This document shows, piece after piece, positions 29,673 to 40,140 of a stretch of 64,000 nt of DNA. Both the position numbers and the translations under genes were made by a program. The notes under the pieces are model-generated. The model saw nothing but the letters and a program-made list of their open reading frames with translations. It was not told the DNA's origin and did no database searches. Every line of letters begins with the position of its first letter. The stretch's first letter is position 1. The DNA is taken from positions 80,158 through 144,157 of the forward strand of contig JAJDBX010000046.1 in assembly GCA_029261135.1 (NCBI GenBank), read 5' to 3'. Origin of the DNA: Nitrospirota bacterium (GTDB taxonomy: Bacteria > Nitrospirota > Nitrospiria > SBBL01 > JAADHI01).

Positions 29673-32183
29673 TTAGCCATTATTTTCTGCTTCTTGAAGC
29701 ACTTCAATGAGCTGAGGGCCGTCAAACTGAAAAGGGTAGACAGGATCTTCGGCTTCCTTCCACGGATCTTTGTAAGCATCAACGGCCTCTTGCATTTTCG
29801 ATTCAAGATTCAAACAAATGCCCATATTATCGTCGATTAAAATTCCTTTGAGCAGGTCGATTCCGATGCGTTCAACAAATCCATAGGTTCGCTCTAAATA
29901 TTTTGCATGTTCCCGATAATATTCAAGAAAGCGACTCGTGTATTGAATCACGGCTTGAGGGTTGTCTACGGTACAGAGCAGATCTCCCTTTCGAATGGTG
30001 CTTCCTGCCGCACCACCGATGTAAATTTCCCATTGGCCCCCTTCGATCGCCACGACACCCACATCTTTAACCAAAGCTTCTGCACAATTTCGAGGGCAAC
30101 CCGTGACCGCCATTTTCACTTTATGAGGCGCTTCTACGCCTTGAAAACGCATTTCAATTTCTTTTGCCAGAGAGATCGAATCCCCCAGACCAAATCGGCA
30201 AAAATCAGTACCCACACAGCTTTTCACCGTACGAAAGGCCTTGGTATAGGCATGACCGCTCGGCAAACCGATGTCTTTCCAAATATTCGGGAGATCCTCT
30301 TTTTTGATTCCCAAGAGGTCGATCCGTTGTCCCCCGGTAAACTTCACCATTTTTGCTTTATATTTTACGGCGGCTTGCGCAATGCGAAGCAATTCTTCGG
30401 GCGTAGTTACGCCACCGATAATTCTGGGGACGACAGAAAAGGTCCCATCTTTTTGGATATTCGCATGCACGCGATCATTAATGAACCGTGCATCCCGTTC
30501 ATCTTCATATTCTTTCGGCCAAAGTGTTTTAAGCAGAGAGGCCAAGCCTGTCTTCGTGGTAGGATCTTCCTGTCCTCCCCCCAATGTCGCTAAGACCACA
30601 CTGACCGATTTTAAACCGTTGGAACGAATCTCACGAACAAGTTGTGATTTTTCAAAGGGAATACCTGGAACATAATAATGCTCACTGGCATCGTAGGATA
30701 CTTCTCCGACCACGGATTCTATGACCTGCGCAATAAATCCACGGCAGGAACCGCAACCCATGCCTGCCTTTGTTTTTGCCCCGACCGCAGCCACACTACT
30801 ACAATTTCCATTTTCTATGGCGGAAACAATCTCACCTTTACACACACCGTTACATCCACAAATTTGCGCCGAATCGGGTAAGTCTCCCGCATCCAGCAAT
30901 TTTGATCCATCAATAGAACCAAAAAGAATCTCTCCGCGATTTTCTGGGAGCTCTTTTTCGTTCATAAAAAGTTGCATGAGGCTGTCACTTAATCCAGTAT
31001 CCCCGAGTAAAATAGCCCCATGTATTTTATTTTCCCGTACAATCAGTTTTTTATAAATGCCCCGATTGGGATCACGATAAACAAGCACTTCGTCATCATT
31101 CTCATCTGTCTCTTTTTCTCCCATAGAGGCAAGATCAACCCCCATCACTTTTAACTTGGTGCCTGTTTTTGAACCGACATACCGTGTTTCCGAATTGACC
31201 CCGGTTAAAATATCGGCCATCACACCGACCTGCTGCCAGATGGGCTCAACCAGACCATAGGTTAAACCACGATGTTCAATACATTCTCCCACCGCAAAAA
31301 TATGAGGATCTTCTGTTCTCATTTGGTCATCACAAAGGATGCCTTTATTGGTTTTTAAACCACTCTTTTCAGCCACCTCAGTCATCGGAACAATGCCCGC
31401 ACTAATGACCACGATATCGGTCTCTAGAATTCCGCCATCCTTAAAAATGAGACGGGAAACCCGTCCATCCTTTGCGACAATTTGAGAAGTAAAGGTTTTC
31501 GTGAAAACGCGAAGTCCCATCGCACCCATCGCGCGTTCCAAGAGATTGGCCGATTCGAGATCCAGTTGAGAAGGCATGAGTTGGTCTGCGGCTTCGATGA
31601 CAGAAACTTCCAGGTCATGTGTCATGAGTCCCCGTGCGGCTTCAAGACCTAACAAGCCTCCACCAATAACCACTGCTTTCTGGCACCCTTTTGCATAATC
31701 TGCAATCTGATCACAGTCCTCTATCGTCCGGAATAAAAAAACACCAGGCAGTTCACTGCCTTTGATCCGTGGCACGAAGGGTCGTGAGCCTGTCGCAATA
31801 ATGAGCTCATCGTAAGGCACCTCAACAAAATGATCCCCATCAATCCCTTGAATCGCTTTATTGTAAGGAATGTCCTCGGCTGAGAGCTTCAGGGCAAAGA
31901 CTTTTTTCGACACTCTATCGATATGTGTCACCTTCATGCCGACATGCAGCGTAATATTATTTTCTTGATACCATTCCAGTGTATTTAGAAAAATCTCACT
32001 CGGACTTTGGGTCTGATTGAGGACATTGCTCAGCAAAATCCGGTTATAGTTTCCATAAGGCTCTGCGCCAAACATCAGAATATCGAAGGCCTCGGGGTCT
32101 CGTTTTAAAATTTCTTCCACCGCCCTCGCACCCGCCATCCCATTGCCGATAACAACAAGTCTTCTTTTCACATCCACTCCCAC
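29673..32183 (-). CDS. nirB: Nitrite reductase (NADH) large subunit
   Basis: FAD/NAD domain, BFD-like [2Fe-2S] CGCNGVCKGEI...GCGSCRG, sulfite/nitrite reductase motifs TGCPRNCAEALVKDVG. Confidence 0.95.
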   Translation of the reverse strand: MGVDVKRRLVVIGNGMAGARAVEEILKRDPEAFDILMFGAEPYGNYNRILLSNVLNQTQSPSEIFLNTLEWYQENNITLHVGMKVTHIDRVSKKVFALKLSAEDIPYNKAIQGIDGDHFVEVPYDELIIATGSRPFVPRIKGSELPGVFLFRTIEDCDQIADYAKGCQKAVVIGGGLLGLEAARGLMTHDLEVSVIEAADQLMPSQLDLESANLLERAMGAMGLRVFTKTFTSQIVAKDGRVSRLIFKDGGILETDIVVISAGIVPMTEVAEKSGLKTNKGILCDDQMRTEDPHIFAVGECIEHRGLTYGLVEPIWQQVGVMADILTGVNSETRYVGSKTGTKLKVMGVDLASMGEKETDENDDEVLVYRDPNRGIYKKLIVRENKIHGAILLGDTGLSDSLMQLFMNEKELPENRGEILFGSIDGSKLLDAGDLPDSAQICGCNGVCKGEIVSAIENGNCSSVAAVGAKTKAGMGCGSCRGFIAQVIESVVGEVSYDASEHYYVPGIPFEKSQLVREIRSNGLKSVSVVLATLGGGQEDPTTKTGLASLLKTLWPKEYEDERDARFINDRVHANIQKDGTFSVVPRIIGGVTTPEELLRIAQAAVKYKAKMVKFTGGQRIDLLGIKKEDLPNIWKDIGLPSGHAYTKAFRTVKSCVGTDFCRFGLGDSISLAKEIEMRFQGVEAPHKVKMAVTGCPRNCAEALVKDVGVVAIEGGQWEIYIGGAAGSTIRKGDLLCTVDNPQAVIQYTSRFLEYYREHAKYLERTYGFVERIGIDLLKGILIDDNMGICLNLESKMQEAVDAYKDPWKEAEDPVYPFQFDGPQLIEVLQEAENNG

Positions 32184-32216: not shown

Positions 32217-32558
32217 TTATAACACCACTAACTCTGGTGAAGTCGTACTATAGTCAATATAAAGTTCCCCGTTTTCAATCCATGCCGGGAAAGAACGAAC
32301 CGATTCATTTCTATCACAGCCTTTTCCCGTACTCAGATCAAATTGATGCCCATGTAAAGGGCAAACCACCTTCCCTTCGCCAATGATTCCTTCGGCAAGA
32401 GGGCCATTTGCATGTGGACACTTATTTTCAATCGCGCTCACTTCTCCCGCTCTTGATCGAAAAATGGCGATCTCTTCTCCTTCCACAGAAAAACTAAGGC
32501 CTTGCCCCATTGGGACGGCTTCTATTGATCCTAATTTCACTTTAAAGGGTTTATTCAT
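32217..32558 (-). CDS. nirD: Nitrite reductase small subunit, Rieske type
   Basis: CPHANGPLAEGIIGEGKVVCPLHGHQFDLSTG Rieske motif; directly upstream of nirB. Confidence 0.93.
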   Translation of the reverse strand: MNKPFKVKLGSIEAVPMGQGLSFSVEGEEIAIFRSRAGEVSAIENKCPHANGPLAEGIIGEGKVVCPLHGHQFDLSTGKGCDRNESVRSFPAWIENGELYIDYSTTSPELVVL

Positions 32559-32585
32559 GGTGATATCTCCAATGTTATATAAAAA

Positions 32586-32618
32586 AAGGCGCCTAGATCC
32601 ATTCGATCTAGGCGCCTT
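32586..32618 (-). terminator. Intrinsic terminator/attenuator in nirD leader
   Basis: Minus strand AAGGCGCCTAGAT-CGAATGG-ATCTAGGCGCCTTTTTTT, 13-bp perfect stem and U tract ending about 22 nt before nirD ATG. Confidence 0.9.
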
Positions 32619-32661
32619 TGCCTAAAATATCTGCTAGCGCTTCAACTCTCTTCTTAACTTA

Positions 32662-32677
32662 AGCAATCGACATACCA
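32662..32677 (-). promoter_or_regulatory. Sigma54-type -24/-12 promoter of nirDB
   Basis: Minus strand TGGTATGTCGATTGCT; GG and GC separated by exactly 10 nt. Confidence 0.8.
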
Positions 32678-32825
32678 AGAAGTGGAGTCAGGCACAAACA
32701 ATAAAAAACATAAATTTTTCAATATGTTAATGCACTATTCTGGGCTTCACCTCAAAACAAGTCAGCAAAACACCCAACATTATTGTCGTATACTGTACAA
32801 AAAGAGAGATGTATTTAAGGACAGC

Positions 32826-34682
32826 CTAATGGTCTTCGAAAAGAACACCCACTTGAGGCCGCTGGGCCAGTCCCGTTTTTCGTGCGAGATTTTCGAAGCT
32901 TTGGTTTCCCCAAAAGAAAGCACGGGGAACGGTCGTGGGAACAACCGAGACATAAAAGAGCGCACGGCCAATCACTTCATGCATAAGGGCAAGCAAGGTC
33001 ATCAAAATCCAGACCAGGAAGCCCGAATCGCTTACGGGAGGAAAAAAAGAAAACCAGAGGGCTAAAATAATGAGGACTATACTGCTGATCTTCCGGGCAC
33101 TTGTTGTTTTTCCAAAAACCTCTATCATCAACATCTGTGAGACCGCCGCCTCCTCTCCTTTTTTGTTCAAATAGCGAAGATGAGTATAAAGTGCCACGCG
33201 CTGAATAATTAATCCGAATAATAAAAAAAGCGCAAAAAGTGAAAGGAGAGGTCTTGTGTCACTGTCTTTCAAAAGACCCATTGTCGCGCTGACCAATCCA
33301 ATGATACTACTACCTAAGATCAATCCGCTCGAAAAAAAAGCCCCGCCAGAATGCCAATGATCCCAAAAAGGACGTGCCGGAATGCGATAACATCGGTACA
33401 TGCAATAAATCGCAAGTGGACCTAAAAGGGAGGCACTCCAGCCGAAAAGGGCAGGCAGTGGGTTTGAAATAAATTCCGGCAACCACGCGATGAGACCGGG
33501 GAAAATATTGACCACGCTATAGGCTGTGAGTAATCCATAAAATCCCCCCATCGCTGCAATTTCACGACTGACCCAAGAATGACGCAAGTTATTCATGGCG
33601 CGATAGAAATACTGAGGTTTCCCGAGGTGTAAAGTCGATAAAACCAGCGCGAAGGTTTGGAGGCCGATCAAGCTCAGCATTAAACCTGCCATCGTGACAG
33701 GATGGCTTTGAAATGAAAATAGAGAAGCGGCCGGCTCACGCCAAAGTGGGAACAGAAAAATAAAAAGAAAGGCGCCCACAACAAATTGAGAAATGAGTGT
33801 GAACAAAACAAGCGGATCTTCCCGCGACCGAAGCTTGTTCAAACCCCAAGTAATCTTTGAAGGATTCCCTTTTGCTTTGATTTTATAGGAGGATTGAGAC
33901 ACATCCATTTTTCCATCCGAATAATTCTCTTTGGAATTCTCTTTATGATAAGAGAGTGGAACATCATCTATTCTGTGGAATTCGTCTGGAAGACTTTGAT
34001 TAAGCTGAAATCGAATATTGGGCCTGGAGATGCTCGGGTCGGTAAAAGAAGGGATAGTCAGATCTGCTGTTTGCTGTTTTTGGGGAATCTCATCAATAAC
34101 ACCGAAATCCAGTGCGTTGCCAAGACAGGCATCCACACAGGCGGGCTGTAAACCGACTTCGAGCCGGTCAATACACATATTACATTTCTGGACTTGTCCT
34201 TTTTCTGTATCGAGCTGAGGCGCATTGTAGGGACAAACCCATGTACAATATCCACACCCAAAACAGATTTCTGGATCTTGGAGCACAGCGCCGTATTCTA
34301 AATATTTTGTATAGGCCCGTGTCGGACAGCCTTTCAGACAGACGGGATCTTCGCAGTGATTGCAGGCCATCGAAATATTGATGCGCGTGACATCAGGGTA
34401 GGTGCCGCCCTCAATGGCACCCACACGACGGTAGGCCATGTGAGGTGCCAGATCATTTTTTTCAGAACAGGCCGATTCACAGGCATGACAGGCGATACAG
34501 TTGTCTGCATTAAAGTGAAATCCATGTTGTTTGTATCGATTGGGATTTTTATGGTTATTTGAGCCACAAGAATGCGAATTGATCTCCAATGGCATGTCCG
34601 CCAAATTGGGGTAAAGGACATCCAGCGCGATCTCTGTCCCGTGCTGGCTTTGTTGAGGAATTTCAGTATTATTCTCATTCAT
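32826..34682 (-). CDS. Fused [4Fe-4S] ferredoxin (DmsB/NrfC-like) and DmsC-like membrane anchor
   Basis: CIACHACESAC, CNHCEDPVCLKGCP, CFGCGYCTWVCP, CNMCIDRLEVGLQPACVDAC four-cluster domain followed by a polytopic DmsC-like region in one 618 aa ORF. Confidence 0.88.
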   Translation of the reverse strand: MNENNTEIPQQSQHGTEIALDVLYPNLADMPLEINSHSCGSNNHKNPNRYKQHGFHFNADNCIACHACESACSEKNDLAPHMAYRRVGAIEGGTYPDVTRINISMACNHCEDPVCLKGCPTRAYTKYLEYGAVLQDPEICFGCGYCTWVCPYNAPQLDTEKGQVQKCNMCIDRLEVGLQPACVDACLGNALDFGVIDEIPQKQQTADLTIPSFTDPSISRPNIRFQLNQSLPDEFHRIDDVPLSYHKENSKENYSDGKMDVSQSSYKIKAKGNPSKITWGLNKLRSREDPLVLFTLISQFVVGAFLFIFLFPLWREPAASLFSFQSHPVTMAGLMLSLIGLQTFALVLSTLHLGKPQYFYRAMNNLRHSWVSREIAAMGGFYGLLTAYSVVNIFPGLIAWLPEFISNPLPALFGWSASLLGPLAIYCMYRCYRIPARPFWDHWHSGGAFFSSGLILGSSIIGLVSATMGLLKDSDTRPLLSLFALFLLFGLIIQRVALYTHLRYLNKKGEEAAVSQMLMIEVFGKTTSARKISSIVLIILALWFSFFPPVSDSGFLVWILMTLLALMHEVIGRALFYVSVVPTTVPRAFFWGNQSFENLARKTGLAQRPQVGVLFEDH

Positions 34683-34700: not shown

Positions 34701-36881
34701 TTAATAGCTCCGTAATTCCAGAAGACTTTTTTCTGCTTCATCTTGATCCATAAGTTTATCGATGCGAACGGTCGATTGTTTATAGGCCGGTTGCCTTGAA
34801 TAGGGGTCGAGTTCCCCTTTCACAAGCCGATTGACACAGTTGTAATAGTGCATCGGGATAAAAATAGCGTCCTCCGAGACCCTTTCCGTGAGCTGGGCCA
34901 GCACAATTGCTGATGATCGTCGGGAGATCACACGGACAAACTCCATCGCCTGAATACCCAATTTTTTTGCAGTTTTGGGATTAATCTCCATAAAAGGCGT
35001 TGGGCTGAATTTATTCAGATTTCCGATTTTTCCAGTTTTGGTTCGTGTATGCCAATGCTCAACGAGACGCCCGGTATTGAGCCAAAAGGGGTAATCTTCG
35101 TCAGGCATTTCATAATTTTCAACGAAAGGGAGAGGGATGAGTTTCGCTTTGCCATCCGGGAATTGAAATACACCATCAGCATAAATCCGTTGACTCCCGT
35201 TAATATTTTGTTCATTGCAAGGCCATTGAATGCCACGGTTTTTTTCGATTTTTTCGTAGCTCATTCCGGAATAATCACAAAGACGCCCTTTAGAAACGCT
35301 TCGCATTTCATCAAAAACCTCGGCTGGCGATTCCGCAAAGGTCATTCCTTTTGCCCGATCAAAACGCTTGGCTAGTTCAATAAAAATCCATAGATCCGGT
35401 TTCGCATCCCCTGGAGGTTCCACCACTTTTCGAACCACGTTCACACGCCGTTCTGTATTAGTAAAAACCCCTGTTTTTTCACCCCAAAGGGCAGCAGGAA
35501 GATACACATGGGCTGATTCCACCGTTTCAACATTGGCATAGGCATCTTGGACAACGAGAAATTCAAGTTGATTCAGTATTTTTCTAATCTTTGTGCTGTC
35601 GGGCATCGAAGTCATCGGATTGGTTCCAATCAGCCAAAGTCCTTTGATTTCACCCCGCTCAATGGCTGGGAAAATATCCGTCTCAGTCAACCCCCGTTTT
35701 TCAGGAAAGTGATGTGCTTCGACCCCCCAAAACTGAGAAGTAAAAGCGCGATCTTCTGCATTTTCGAGTAAACGATATCCAGGTAATCCCGAACAGGAAG
35801 AGAATTCTCGTGTGCCCATGGCATTGCACTGACCTGTAATCGAAAGGGACGTACCCCCGGGTTTACCGATATTTCCTGTGATTAAATTTAAATTATTAAT
35901 TGCGACGACACCGTCGGAGCCATGGGTCGACTGGTTAATGCCCATGGTCCAAATGGTCATGGCCGCGCCTGCATCGCCATAAATTCGCGCGACTTTCCGA
36001 ATCATCTTAGCGGAAATACCACAAACTTTTTCAGCCATTTCCGGGCTGTATTGGGCCACCAATGACCCAAATGCTTCGAATCCATTTGTGTGGAATTTAA
36101 TATAGTCTTGATCTGCCAAGCCTTCTTCTAAGATAACGTGAGCCATTGCATTGAGCAGAACCAAGTCTGTCCCAGGCTTGATTGGCAGGTGAATATCGGC
36201 CATTTGTGCAAACATCGTGACTCTGGGATCCACCACAATGATAGGAAAACGACGACGATCGTACGCTTCTTTTAAACGATAATAAATAATCGGGTGTTGT
36301 TCCGGTAAATTCGATCCGATAGCAAGCAGACATCCCGTATGCTCAAAATCATCATAACACCCTGGCGGGCCGTCACTGCCAAACGACCTCTTATAACCTG
36401 AGACAGCCGAAGCCATACAAAGGGTCGTATTCCCGTCATAGTTATTTGTTCGAATAACACCCCGAGCGAGCTTACCCAAGGTATAAAATTCTTCTGTATA
36501 GATCTGTCCTGTCGAAACAATGGCAAAGCTGTCGCGTCCGTATAAGGCTTGGATACGACCAATCTCACTGGCTGTTCTATTTAGGGCCTCATCCCAAGTG
36601 GTCTCGGTGAAAAGGTCTGGACGATCTTTACGAAGCAGTGGTGTTGTACCGCGATTCTCTGATTCAAAAACCTCATATTCATAGATCCCTTTCAAACAAA
36701 GCTTCCCTCGATTAACATCGGCATCAGCCACCCCCCGGGCGGTGACGGCCTTACCAGCCTGATTGACTCCAACTTCTATCGAGCAGCCTGTCGAGCAATA
36801 GCCACAGGTCGTATAAACCCATTTCTCAACGGGTTTTACCGGAAGTTGAATCTCATTTTTAAACCGTCGTCCAAATAACAT
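34701..36881 (-). CDS. Molybdopterin oxidoreductase, assimilatory nitrate reductase catalytic subunit (NasC/NarB-like)
   Basis: TTCGYCSTGCSIEVGV...GKLCLKG FeS motif, no evident Tat signal, clustered with nirBD. Confidence 0.88.
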   Translation of the reverse strand: MLFGRRFKNEIQLPVKPVEKWVYTTCGYCSTGCSIEVGVNQAGKAVTARGVADADVNRGKLCLKGIYEYEVFESENRGTTPLLRKDRPDLFTETTWDEALNRTASEIGRIQALYGRDSFAIVSTGQIYTEEFYTLGKLARGVIRTNNYDGNTTLCMASAVSGYKRSFGSDGPPGCYDDFEHTGCLLAIGSNLPEQHPIIYYRLKEAYDRRRFPIIVVDPRVTMFAQMADIHLPIKPGTDLVLLNAMAHVILEEGLADQDYIKFHTNGFEAFGSLVAQYSPEMAEKVCGISAKMIRKVARIYGDAGAAMTIWTMGINQSTHGSDGVVAINNLNLITGNIGKPGGTSLSITGQCNAMGTREFSSCSGLPGYRLLENAEDRAFTSQFWGVEAHHFPEKRGLTETDIFPAIERGEIKGLWLIGTNPMTSMPDSTKIRKILNQLEFLVVQDAYANVETVESAHVYLPAALWGEKTGVFTNTERRVNVVRKVVEPPGDAKPDLWIFIELAKRFDRAKGMTFAESPAEVFDEMRSVSKGRLCDYSGMSYEKIEKNRGIQWPCNEQNINGSQRIYADGVFQFPDGKAKLIPLPFVENYEMPDEDYPFWLNTGRLVEHWHTRTKTGKIGNLNKFSPTPFMEINPKTAKKLGIQAMEFVRVISRRSSAIVLAQLTERVSEDAIFIPMHYYNCVNRLVKGELDPYSRQPAYKQSTVRIDKLMDQDEAEKSLLELRSY

Positions 36882-36900
36882 ATGTACTCACCCATAAAAA

Positions 36901-36932
36901 AAGCGTCTAGACTAAAAAAATCTAGGCGCCTT
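36901..36932 (-). terminator. Intrinsic terminator/attenuator in nitrate reductase leader
   Basis: Minus strand AAGGCGCCTAGA-TTTTTTTAG-TCTAGACGCTTTTTTT (one C-A mismatch), followed within 20 nt by the start codon. Confidence 0.82.
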
Positions 36933-36936
36933 CGCC

Positions 36937-36964
36937 ATTCAACCCACATCCTTGTGTCTTGAAT
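36937..36964 (-). promoter_or_regulatory. Leader hairpin with A1/G4 hexaloop (ANTAR-target-like)
   Basis: Minus strand ATTCAAGACAC-AAGGAT-GTGGGTTGAAT: 3 bp, 2x2 internal loop, 6 bp, hexaloop AAGGAT. Confidence 0.55.
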
Positions 36965-36977
36965 ACTCTCCTAGTTA

Positions 36978-36993
36978 AGCAATCCATATGCCT
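36978..36993 (-). promoter_or_regulatory. Sigma54-type -24/-12 promoter of nitrate reductase operon
   Basis: Minus strand AGGCATATGGATTGCT; GG and GC separated by exactly 10 nt. Confidence 0.78.
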
Positions 36994-37247
36994 TTTCTTA
37001 AAAAGGTGTATTTAGAGAGAATCTACATTAAAAACAGCCTCTTATTATTTAATAAATATTAAAATCATAAAATTAAAATAAGTGAGAGACGACAATTTTG
37101 TTTATATCCCAACGAAAAAGAAAGGATCGAAAATAAAAAGTCCCTGCCCTTTGAATGCTTCTGCATATTCGAATGTGCTTATTTATCATCGATGCAAAAG
37201 ACTCATTATCAAACGAGGAGGTCAATTTAAAGAAGTGTTTCTTGAGT

Positions 37248-38222
37248 CTATTCGACAGGTGTCCCTATTTGTTCAAAAAGATCTAAAAGCGCCGTATTTT
37301 TTATTGTTTTGGCAAATTTAATTCCAAGAACCTGTGAATCCTCAGAATTAAACTGCCTTTTGTAGCGAACAAGCCCAAATATCCGCACCTTAAACTCATG
37401 AATTGCTGCATTCTCATTTTTTGAAAATAGTGAGGGGAGCTCGATATAAACCAAACGGCCGACCTGCGGGGCTTCCTCTCCTTTGGGGATAACGATCGCA
37501 AGACCTGACACCGAGATATCATGGATAAGAACAGCCGTTTTATATTTTGATAAACTCACAACAAAGCGAGTCTCTTCTTCATAATCAAAAACAAGCACAT
37601 CCAGTTCCTGATCAGGTTCCGGCTCCAATTCAACATTCGAACAAGGGATATCTTCTATCGTCAAGATAACCGGCATTTTTTGTTTGACGCCCTTCCCCTT
37701 CTTAAGCTCTTTTGAACGGGCTTCTTCCTCGGGGTTGATCTGTTCGCTTCGCCTGACGAGTTGAAGCTCTCTGTTTCTAAACAGCGTCACCAATACTTCA
37801 GGAACAAGGGAGATAGATACAGGGATCGCCAGATCAATGCGCCAACGCGTCCCGAACCTCGGGTCATAATAGGCCAAAGAAACAAAGGGATGGAGAATTT
37901 TTTTTACAAATCCCTGAATGACATAATCATTCCCTTCGGCAGAAAAAATCACTAAAACATGATCCGCATAACCAATGTTAAAGCAATCTGGCAACCGAAC
38001 CACCAGTTCATTGGCATCCACTCTGACAATATCAGTCATGTGTATTTTTCGATCACCGGTGATAATCTTTATTTTTTTTTCCCGTTGCTCAAATTCTTTC
38101 AGGATTTTCTGGTTAATTTTTTTCGGATGGCTGATTTGATGCACATTATAATCACTCGAAATATTCAGTGCTTGTGCGATGTTGATAAAAAAAGTACATT
38201 GATTGATGCTGAAGCTTTTCAT
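37248..38222 (-). CDS. PilZ/YcgR-like domain protein
   Basis: Two beta-rich domains, VSLSKYKTAVLIHDISVSGLAIVIPKGEEAPQVGRLVYIELPSL typical of PilZ; start reassigned to internal Met (MKSFSINQ) to avoid overlap with the upstream gene. Confidence 0.6.
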   Translation of the reverse strand: MKSFSINQCTFFINIAQALNISSDYNVHQISHPKKINQKILKEFEQREKKIKIITGDRKIHMTDIVRVDANELVVRLPDCFNIGYADHVLVIFSAEGNDYVIQGFVKKILHPFVSLAYYDPRFGTRWRIDLAIPVSISLVPEVLVTLFRNRELQLVRRSEQINPEEEARSKELKKGKGVKQKMPVILTIEDIPCSNVELEPEPDQELDVLVFDYEEETRFVVSLSKYKTAVLIHDISVSGLAIVIPKGEEAPQVGRLVYIELPSLFSKNENAAIHEFKVRIFGLVRYKRQFNSEDSQVLGIKFAKTIKNTALLDLFEQIGTPVE

Positions 38223-38244
38223 ATTGAACGACCGATGGCCCGGA

Positions 38245-40140
38245 TCAAGGGCTTGTGAGTTGAATCTCATAGGAACCCAGCTTTCCCGCAGAGGACGGCG
38301 CATTTGGGGCCTGAGTCACCTCAGCCGTAAAAGTCCCTGTTTCTGTTGCTGTAAAAGTGACAGAGGAAGCAAGGCTCGTTGCATCATTTTTTGGACAAGT
38401 ACTGACACAGGTCAAAAAATTACCATCGCTCGGATTGTCATTCGTATCTACTTCAATTCCGCTCGGATTTTTAATTGTCAAAAAAGTATCAGCCCCATTG
38501 GAGAGGTTTAAAGTACTTACCGTGTAGGTCGTACTAAAAGTCGCAGAAAAAGAGATCACATCAGTATCGTCCGAATGATCGGAGGCATCCAAATAGAGCG
38601 TATGTTTTTGTGTGCTTGTATCGTTCACGATAAGTGGCGTTTCCGAGGTTTCACCCGTATCTTCAAAGAGATTAATCTTACGGGCTTTTAATATGGTTTG
38701 GAAAACACTGTTCGATGAAGAAGTTGTACTTCCGACTGAGAATTGTGTCCAGAAAGTCTCCATTGTGGTCGGTTTGGTCAACGGAAAAGCCAAAACAGTT
38801 TGAAAAATATCCTTGAAGCTCAAATCAAGAGAATCACTTTCACTCACATCAACCGCATCTAATACATCCCATAAAGTCCCGGAGACTGCAATCTCGCTCG
38901 TGGTATAAATGGCAACAGATGAAAGCCCGGAAATCCCTGAATAGGTCTCCATGTCAAAAGAAGCACCGACCCCGCCTTCTATGGTATCCACATAAATGGG
39001 AGACTCTAAAACGGCAAAAGCAAAAAAATTTGCCCATCCTTCTGACCAACTCAGTCGAATGTCTTGATCGTTTTCCAGTATGCTGTGTGTGCCACCGGGT
39101 GAATTGTCCCCTGAAAATTTATCGAGAATAAAATGGCCGTATTCATGCGCAATCACAACATCGTCGTATTCATCGCTATCCAGATCAGAGGTTCCACCGC
39201 CTAAGAGCGTGATGGCATCCACGGTGCCATCAAAAAAAGTGCCTTCCGAACTTCCCGGCTCCCAGTACACTGTAATCAAGGGTGGCACACATCCTGTGTT
39301 GGTGGGATCTGGACAAGGACCTGCCGTTTGGACAAGGGCGCTGGCTTCAGTCAAGACATCAAGAATATTAAAAGCACCACCAATATTTGACGATACTGTC
39401 GCAAGGAGATTTTTTGTTTGCAAAAAAGGATCGGAAGTACTGTCGTCAATGACAGAAGAAGTCGCAGCAAAGAAAGATCGGCTAGAGTTATTGTTGCGAA
39501 TTTCGATTTTTGTATTTGTCGTTGTATCTGTTCTGCTCACCACCCGAAGGTAAACACCCCCTCCGTTTGCACTATTATCGGCTGCCACATTAAAGATCCC
39601 ATCTGAACCTGTAACACCAGTCCCAATCACCTTGAAACCATCAATGGCCACCACTTCAACAATCGCGCCTGGAATGGGTTTTGGATCAAGAACTCCGGTA
39701 AATCCATTTTGATTAAAGGCACGATCCTCGTAAGTAGCGGTTCCAGAAAGCGTAAGACTCGCCGCCCCCGAACTCCCACTCACCACCCCAACCCGGGTGC
39801 TGGCGGAATAGGTTATAGAATCAATCACTGTTGTTGCGGTGATACTCGTCACTTCCACCCCCACACCCGTTGCAAGCCCGGTGGCATCAACAGTCACAAC
39901 AGAAGTATCCACCGACGCCCATGTAAAGGTCGGGTTTTCTACAGTACTCCCATCCGATAAAAATAATGTGGCTGAAAGCTGAACAGCACTTCCTCCCACA
40001 GTGACATTCACTGGACTTGGAGAAATCGAAACCCTGGAAATGGTCGGCGCCGTCGGCGTCGTCGTTGAGCTGCTACTACTATTACAGGCTACAAAAAAAA
40101 GCACAGACAATACCGTGCTGTAAGCGACCCATCTCTGCAT
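38245..40140 (-). CDS. Putative lipoprotein with Big_2-like domain and gluzincin-like HEYGH motif
   Basis: Lipobox FFVAC, Ig-like TVGGSAVQLSATLFLSDGSTVENPTFTWASVDTSVVTVDATGLATGV, VVIAHEYGHFILDKFSG and SWSEGWANFFAF. Confidence 0.75.
   Translation of the reverse strand: MQRWVAYSTVLSVLFFVACNSSSSSTTTPTAPTISRVSISPSPVNVTVGGSAVQLSATLFLSDGSTVENPTFTWASVDTSVVTVDATGLATGVGVEVTSITATTVIDSITYSASTRVGVVSGSSGAASLTLSGTATYEDRAFNQNGFTGVLDPKPIPGAIVEVVAIDGFKVIGTGVTGSDGIFNVAADNSANGGGVYLRVVSRTDTTTNTKIEIRNNNSSRSFFAATSSVIDDSTSDPFLQTKNLLATVSSNIGGAFNILDVLTEASALVQTAGPCPDPTNTGCVPPLITVYWEPGSSEGTFFDGTVDAITLLGGGTSDLDSDEYDDVVIAHEYGHFILDKFSGDNSPGGTHSILENDQDIRLSWSEGWANFFAFAVLESPIYVDTIEGGVGASFDMETYSGISGLSSVAIYTTSEIAVSGTLWDVLDAVDVSESDSLDLSFKDIFQTVLAFPLTKPTTMETFWTQFSVGSTTSSSNSVFQTILKARKINLFEDTGETSETPLIVNDTSTQKHTLYLDASDHSDDTDVISFSATFSTTYTVSTLNLSNGADTFLTIKNPSGIEVDTNDNPSDGNFLTCVSTCPKNDATSLASSVTFTATETGTFTAEVTQAPNAPSSAGKLGSYEIQLTSP

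Follow-up and report, generated by a model that had tools for sequence, protein, structure and literature searches.

In Klebsiella oxytoca the transcription of nasF is started at low nitrogen by NtrC and sigma-54 and is then antiterminated by the NIT-ANTAR protein NasR, acting on a two-hairpin leader before the nitrate assimilation genes (PMC5424462, PMC7496416). The NasS-NasT leaders of Paracoccus, Azotobacter and Pseudomonas likewise combine an ANTAR protein and attenuation before the nas genes with general nitrogen control on top. In Enterococcus faecalis the eutP leader, a target of EutV, contains two hexaloop hairpins of the A1/G4 type (A at loop position 1, G at position 4), which are separated by a linker of several nucleotides and the second of which (P2) overlaps the terminator (PMC3369931, PMC8934654). 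Nitrogen ANTAR regulons have been predicted for Desulfotomaculum and Pelobacter, with leaders before P-II, ammonium transporter, nitrite reductase and comparable genes, and with more than one leader in a transcription unit (Ramesh et al. 2012, PMC3369931). That 2012 paper, which defined the ANTAR RNA motif, remarked that GAF-ANTAR proteins were still uncharacterised (PMC3369931), and our literature search found nothing on ANTAR in Nitrospira or on nitrogen regulation in Manganitrophaceae. The leader analysed here shares the general plan of these systems. It belongs to a genome whose closest company is Candidatus Manganitrophaceae together with related MAGs of the Nitrospirota.

The leaders before nasC and nirD

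The leader lies on the minus strand between a PilZ-like gene (37248-38303) and a nitrate reductase gene (34701-36881). All positions refer to the window, that is the whole 64-kb stretch of DNA that was analysed. The parts of the leader and the genes of the cluster are as follows.

37090..37102, minus: palindrome AACAAAATTGTCG, candidate activator site, ~110 nt 5' of the -24 element
36979..36992, minus: sigma-54 (-24/-12) promoter GGCATATGGATTGC, read directly and conserved
~36967, minus: predicted +1, placed from the promoter 12 nt past the -12 GC
36937..36964, minus: P1 hairpin, hexaloop AAGGAT at 36953-36948, closing C:G
36925..36936, minus: P2 hairpin GGC-GAAGGC-GCC, candidate antiterminator, 3' half common to the terminator
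36896..36932, minus: intrinsic terminator, stem 36932-36901, U tract 36902-36896
34701..36881, minus: nasC-type nitrate reductase catalytic subunit, 726 aa, with molybdopterin oxidoreductase domains
32826..34682, minus: fusion of a DmsB-like Fe-S part with a DmsC-like membrane anchor, 618 aa, downstream partner of nasC
32217..32558, minus: nirD-like Rieske nitrite reductase small subunit
29673..32183, minus: nirB nitrite reductase large subunit, above the cut-off of the NirB model

Among the NCBIfam models the nasC product matches Fdh-alpha best and the assimilatory NasC second best, both below cut-off. The position of the Fe-S/DmsC-like fusion beside an assimilatory-type nitrate reductase suggests, judging from the gene content, that quinol is the electron donor.

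On the minus strand the promoter reads GG (36992-36991), N10, GC (36980-36979) in a GGCAY-N5-TTGC context. The predicted +1 is only a few bases 5' of P1, so that the transcript ahead of the ribosome site would consist almost entirely of P1, P2 and the terminator. From the loop outward the stem of P1 comprises 3 bp (CAC/GTG, with the closing C:G), a GA/GG internal loop and ATTCAA/TTGAAT, and P1 thereby shows the features of ANTAR leaders: at least 3 bp, a hexaloop with A1 and G4, and a closing C:G pair. P2 has the stem, the closing C:G and the G4 of this rule, with G instead of A at position 1, and it overlaps and excludes the terminator as is demanded of an ANTAR leader. Between the capping 3-bp stems there are 8 nt, inside the usual range of about 5-12 nt. 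In one fold G1 and C6 of the P2 loop could pair and leave a tetraloop, and the residues G4-G5-C6 are also dictated by the terminator stem. In RNA folding the full-length leader adopts P1 and the terminator, a transcript ending before the 3' arm of the terminator adopts P1 and P2, and the leader is more stable than its shuffled versions (z -3.1). The sequence-only reading had proposed a sigma-54 promoter and an ANTAR-like attenuation leader here, with a hairpin carrying AAGGAT followed by a terminator, and these parts are where it had seen them; the U tract of seven T, which it let end about 20 nt before the start codon, ends 14 nt 5' of the nasC ATG (36881-36879).

Scanning the window for a P1 (A1, G4), a P2 (G4) and an overlapping terminator returned a single place, the nasC leader. 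Because dinucleotide shuffles contain 0.2 such dual motifs per 64-kb window (at most 2), the anatomy alone is suggestive and not decisive, and the case therefore rests on conservation. Standard terminator and sigma-70 scans of the window did not report the nasC leader, and an Rfam search gave over it no family at gathering score and no ANTAR family match.

A second leader, which was absent from the sequence-only reading, stands before nirD (32581-32676).

32775..32787, minus: palindrome GACAATAATGTTG, 111 nt before the -24 element of the nirD promoter
32663..32676, minus: second sigma-54 promoter, GGTATGTCGATTGC, before nirD
32607..32626, minus: P2-type hairpin TTTAGGC-AAAGGC-GCCTAGA (A1, G4) of the nirD leader
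32581..32616, minus: terminator before nirD, its 12 base pairs unbroken and followed by 7 T

No clear P1 was found in this leader. The same layout precedes nirD in G001 and G003, and the loop is AAAGGC in all three cases. Genome-wide matches to GGCNANGGCGCC beyond nasC and nirD look coding, and the total of all matches equals the control count.

Conservation, targets and covariation

The dual hairpin precedes nasC in all four congeners (P1 loops AAGGAA, AAGGAC, AATGTC and AGCGTC), and the P1-P2 linker is constant at 8 nt in all five g1 nasC leaders. The nasC leaders of a sister genus keep the sigma-54 site, P2 (AAAGGC, AATGGC) and the terminator and show no clear P1. The terminator of the G004 nasC leader is weak. 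In gammaproteobacterial nasC relatives, for instance L049, L101 and L113, there is a sigma-54-like site near the start codon and no leader. In G001 (L003/L043) the nasC leader is kept without a recognisable sigma-54 site.

A covariance model made from five leaders only, those of this genome and its four congeners (R1), matches G013, a member of another family, with E 1.2e-5 before a SUOX-type gene. This leader has a sigma-54 site, an upstream ACAAAAATGTCGT, P1 with AATGTT, P2 with GATGGC and a terminator. Low R1 matches in the genome of the window (E >0.3) are without terminator and were set aside. A second covariance model, R2, was run over 273 genomes of the class and has matches in 23 of them. 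Two of these matches (L257, L259) look like chance matches in coding sequence and were discarded, and a reverse-strand match at L209 is the palindrome of a real one. The targets after these discards are SUOX-type, P-II, sigma-54 activator, nadE and porin(-amtB) genes, with independent copies in further families of the class and leaders before nitrogen genes in about 20 Nitrospiria genomes. Several leaders lie close to ANTAR genes: the distance from the stop codon of the GAF-GAF-ANTAR gene to the leader core is 29-34 nt in G153 and G129, and in G032 and G035 the ANTAR gene lies a few kb upstream of the leader, the order in G032 being ANTAR, nadE-like, leader, sigma-54 activator, SUOX-type and nirB-like. 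In G014 (L260:2713-2975) porin and amtB stand behind two ANTAR-type leaders in tandem, which come after a sigma-54 site; in the genome of the window none could be made out immediately before porin-amtB.

Some further observations concern single loci. G005 encodes behind an ANTAR-type leader a SUOX-type molybdopterin domain (PF00174) fused with a P-II domain (PF00543; L238:3813-4916, minus). A nitrate transporter gene in L200 (431-846) is preceded by a sigma-54 site, a small DUF2292 gene and a strong 15-bp terminator, and a similar terminator lies before the porin leader of G003 (L221). The L200 terminator (G000:C63), which stands before the second nitrate transporter, shows no A1/G4 hexaloops and was not counted as an ANTAR leader.

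In the five leaders of this genome and its congeners alone, covariation is not significant against shuffles; it becomes significant only once independent leaders are added. With nine leaders 95.5% of the cells are paired versus 86.8% in shuffles and there are 9 two-sided changes versus 2.4; none of 500 shuffles reached either value, and the pairing is lost when the 3' partner is shifted. The wider leader set has 37 two-sided changes versus 11.4 in shuffles, in an alignment (A5) that had been fitted to the structure model and in which a few rows are weak. The 5' arm of P2 covaries with the arm shared with the terminator (GGC/GCC and GAC/GTC). In the loop sets, which were compiled by hand from the leaders found, P1 has G4 in 24 of 24 and A1 in 20 of 24 cases; positions 2, 3, 5 and 6 vary more and the closing C:G is invariant. 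P2 has G4 in 27 of 28 loops, and at its first position there are 18 G, eight A and two T. Going by these loops, G at position 1 of P2 is a trait of the lineage. The sequence-only reading had named the 3 bp of P2 and its G at this position as a caveat; both details are correct, and G1 is typical here and probably no defect. EutV targets require A at position 1 of P2 (PMC3369931). In the EutV-RNA structure G4 is specifically contacted by the protein and A1 is not (PMC8934654), and for this reason G1 need not abolish recognition. EutV needs both hairpins, whereas the nirD and g2 nasC leaders have no clear P1.

The GAF-GAF-ANTAR protein and a candidate sigma-54 activator

The sequence-only reading depended on an ANTAR protein in the genome and on covariation in homologous leaders. 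The covariance search of related genomes supplied such leaders with covarying stems, and one ANTAR gene is encoded, with E 2.8e-23, above the Pfam cut-off, and on the same contig as the nasC leader. Its product of 420 aa consists of two GAF domains followed by ANTAR. The GAF stretches match the models of PtsP and NifA, both of which are nitrogen-linked regulators, and this similarity may be taken as a hint to the signal class. In a phmmer alignment the RNA-contact residues R142, K143, K149, E160, M172, N173 and R175 of EutV, as named in PMC8934654, are kept, and three are altered (Y164 to F, K147 to R, R177 to T). This sole ANTAR protein has no NIT domain, and neither an NMT1_2 (NasS-type) protein nor a separate NasT was found in the genome, which is 95% complete. 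The sequence-only reading had cited NasR, NasT and EutV as ANTAR proteins; the one encoded here is of the GAF-GAF-ANTAR kind and none of these three, so that nitrate need not be its signal.

ANTAR is present in 31 of the 41 relatives examined. Leaders occur in 18 of these 31 genomes and in none of the ten ANTAR-negative ones (p 0.001, uncorrected for kinship). The nasC orthologues of the ANTAR-positive G006, G010, G024 and G029 are without such a leader.

Initiation by sigma-54, the other half of the original proposal, is supported by the genome data: RpoN is encoded, GG-N10-GC is conserved before six of the seven leader-bearing nasC orthologues, and a palindrome is conserved upstream of several of them. 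The sigma-54 pattern occurs 33 times in the genome versus 10 times for a reversed-pattern control. In this genome and its relatives, palindromes of the GACAAAAATGTCG type stand before the sigma-54 sites of nasC, nirD and nitrate-transporter genes, at a distance of 110-134 nt, and the GACAAAAATGTC type was seen at this distance in several genomes; genome-wide the palindrome pattern is about as frequent as its reversed control. One GACA-N4-TGTC match, which falls within trxA (window ~43407), is due to chance.

The likeliest activator of the nasC promoter may be a 332-aa AAA+/Fis protein without sensor domain, whose gene precedes porin-amtB-glnB on contig C10 and which is 69% identical to the activator of G014 that stands behind an ANTAR leader. 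A third leader precedes its gene as well (L262, G000:C10, ~C10:117534, minus), with a sigma-70-like promoter, P2 (GAC-GATGGC-GTC) and a terminator. The gene behind this leader is likely a sigma-54 activator gene.

Proposed mechanism, alternatives and known systems

We regard it as highly probable that nitrate assimilation passes a two-step gate here, initiation by sigma-54 and then antitermination by the GAF-GAF-ANTAR protein. In the first step sigma-54 RNA polymerase would start at ~36967, activated by a protein of the NtrC/NifA family bound near 37096, for which the C10 AAA+/Fis protein is a plausible candidate. By default the nascent leader would form the terminator, and transcription would stop before nasC. 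The active GAF-GAF-ANTAR protein would bind the P1 hexaloop as a recruitment site and stabilise P2, and since the terminator cannot form without the 3' half of P2, polymerase would then read on into nasC. Nitrogen status sensed via the GAF domains is a likelier signal than direct sensing of nitrate.

The terminator is clear, P1 could be a mere 5' stabilising hairpin, and the terminator stem by itself accounts for residues 4-6 of the P2 loop; an attenuator that works without ANTAR protein, by trimming a fixed fraction of transcripts, by folding kinetics or through another ligand, could therefore be imagined. We consider this improbable, because in P1 G4 and mostly A1 are kept while other loop positions vary more and the closing C:G does not change, because there is covariation between the 5' arm of P2 and the arm in common with the terminator, and because the motif is found next to ANTAR genes and ahead of nitrogen genes. 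A PyrR binding site, i.e. a pyrimidine attenuator, is the best weak Rfam match (25.9 bits, E 0.22) and has hardly any probability at all: its bits fall well short of the gathering score of 54, several positions do not pair, the gene context is wrong, and the orthologous leaders fit the ANTAR pattern.

A further alternative keeps the ANTAR control and differs in the signal. A classical nitrate-specific switch, in which nitrate is sensed as in NasR or NasT through an undetected partner, would agree with nitrate and nitrite reductases as targets and with the well-studied nas ANTAR systems, which respond to nitrate or nitrite (PMC5424462). Such a switch appears unlikely, given the missing NasS-type protein in a 95% complete genome, the missing NIT domain, and the motif before P-II, amt and nadE genes of relatives, which suggests general nitrogen status. 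Beyond the two-step gate at nasC, we tentatively put forward a class-wide Nitrospirota RNA regulon of the GAF-GAF-ANTAR protein, which is conceivable rather than probable: in a coherent feed-forward the protein would open the attenuator of the sensor-less sigma-54 activator and then those of this activator's own sigma-54 targets (nasC, nirD, porin-amtB), would sense general nitrogen status and not nitrate, and would act on asymmetric loops (P1 A1-G4, P2 usually G1-G4).

The GAF-GAF-ANTAR family is widespread in Nitrospiria, and both its gene neighbourhoods and its co-occurrence with the leaders link it to RNA targets before nitrogen genes. Nitrifiers and manganese oxidisers belong to this phylum, the present genome being a relative of the latter. 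The leaders provide ready test substrates and a probable signal class, and the documented G at position 1 of P2 bears on how strict the A1/G4 rule for ANTAR loops is.

In comparison with nasF of Klebsiella, the regulator here is a GAF-GAF-ANTAR protein without NIT domain that is encoded away from the operon, the P2 loop usually starts with G, and a further leader is found inside the cluster before nirD. The NasS-NasT systems differ by their NasS-type NMT1_2 protein and separate NasT, both missing here. EutV is a REC-ANTAR protein activated by phosphorylation, and A1 is kept in both loops of its targets. The regulons of Desulfotomaculum and Pelobacter belong to other phyla, and the main text of PMC3369931 does not mention Nitrospirota. 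Taken at the level of sequence, these comparisons support that the nasC leader joins the known kind of ANTAR attenuation, with an unusual sensor and a variant of P2.
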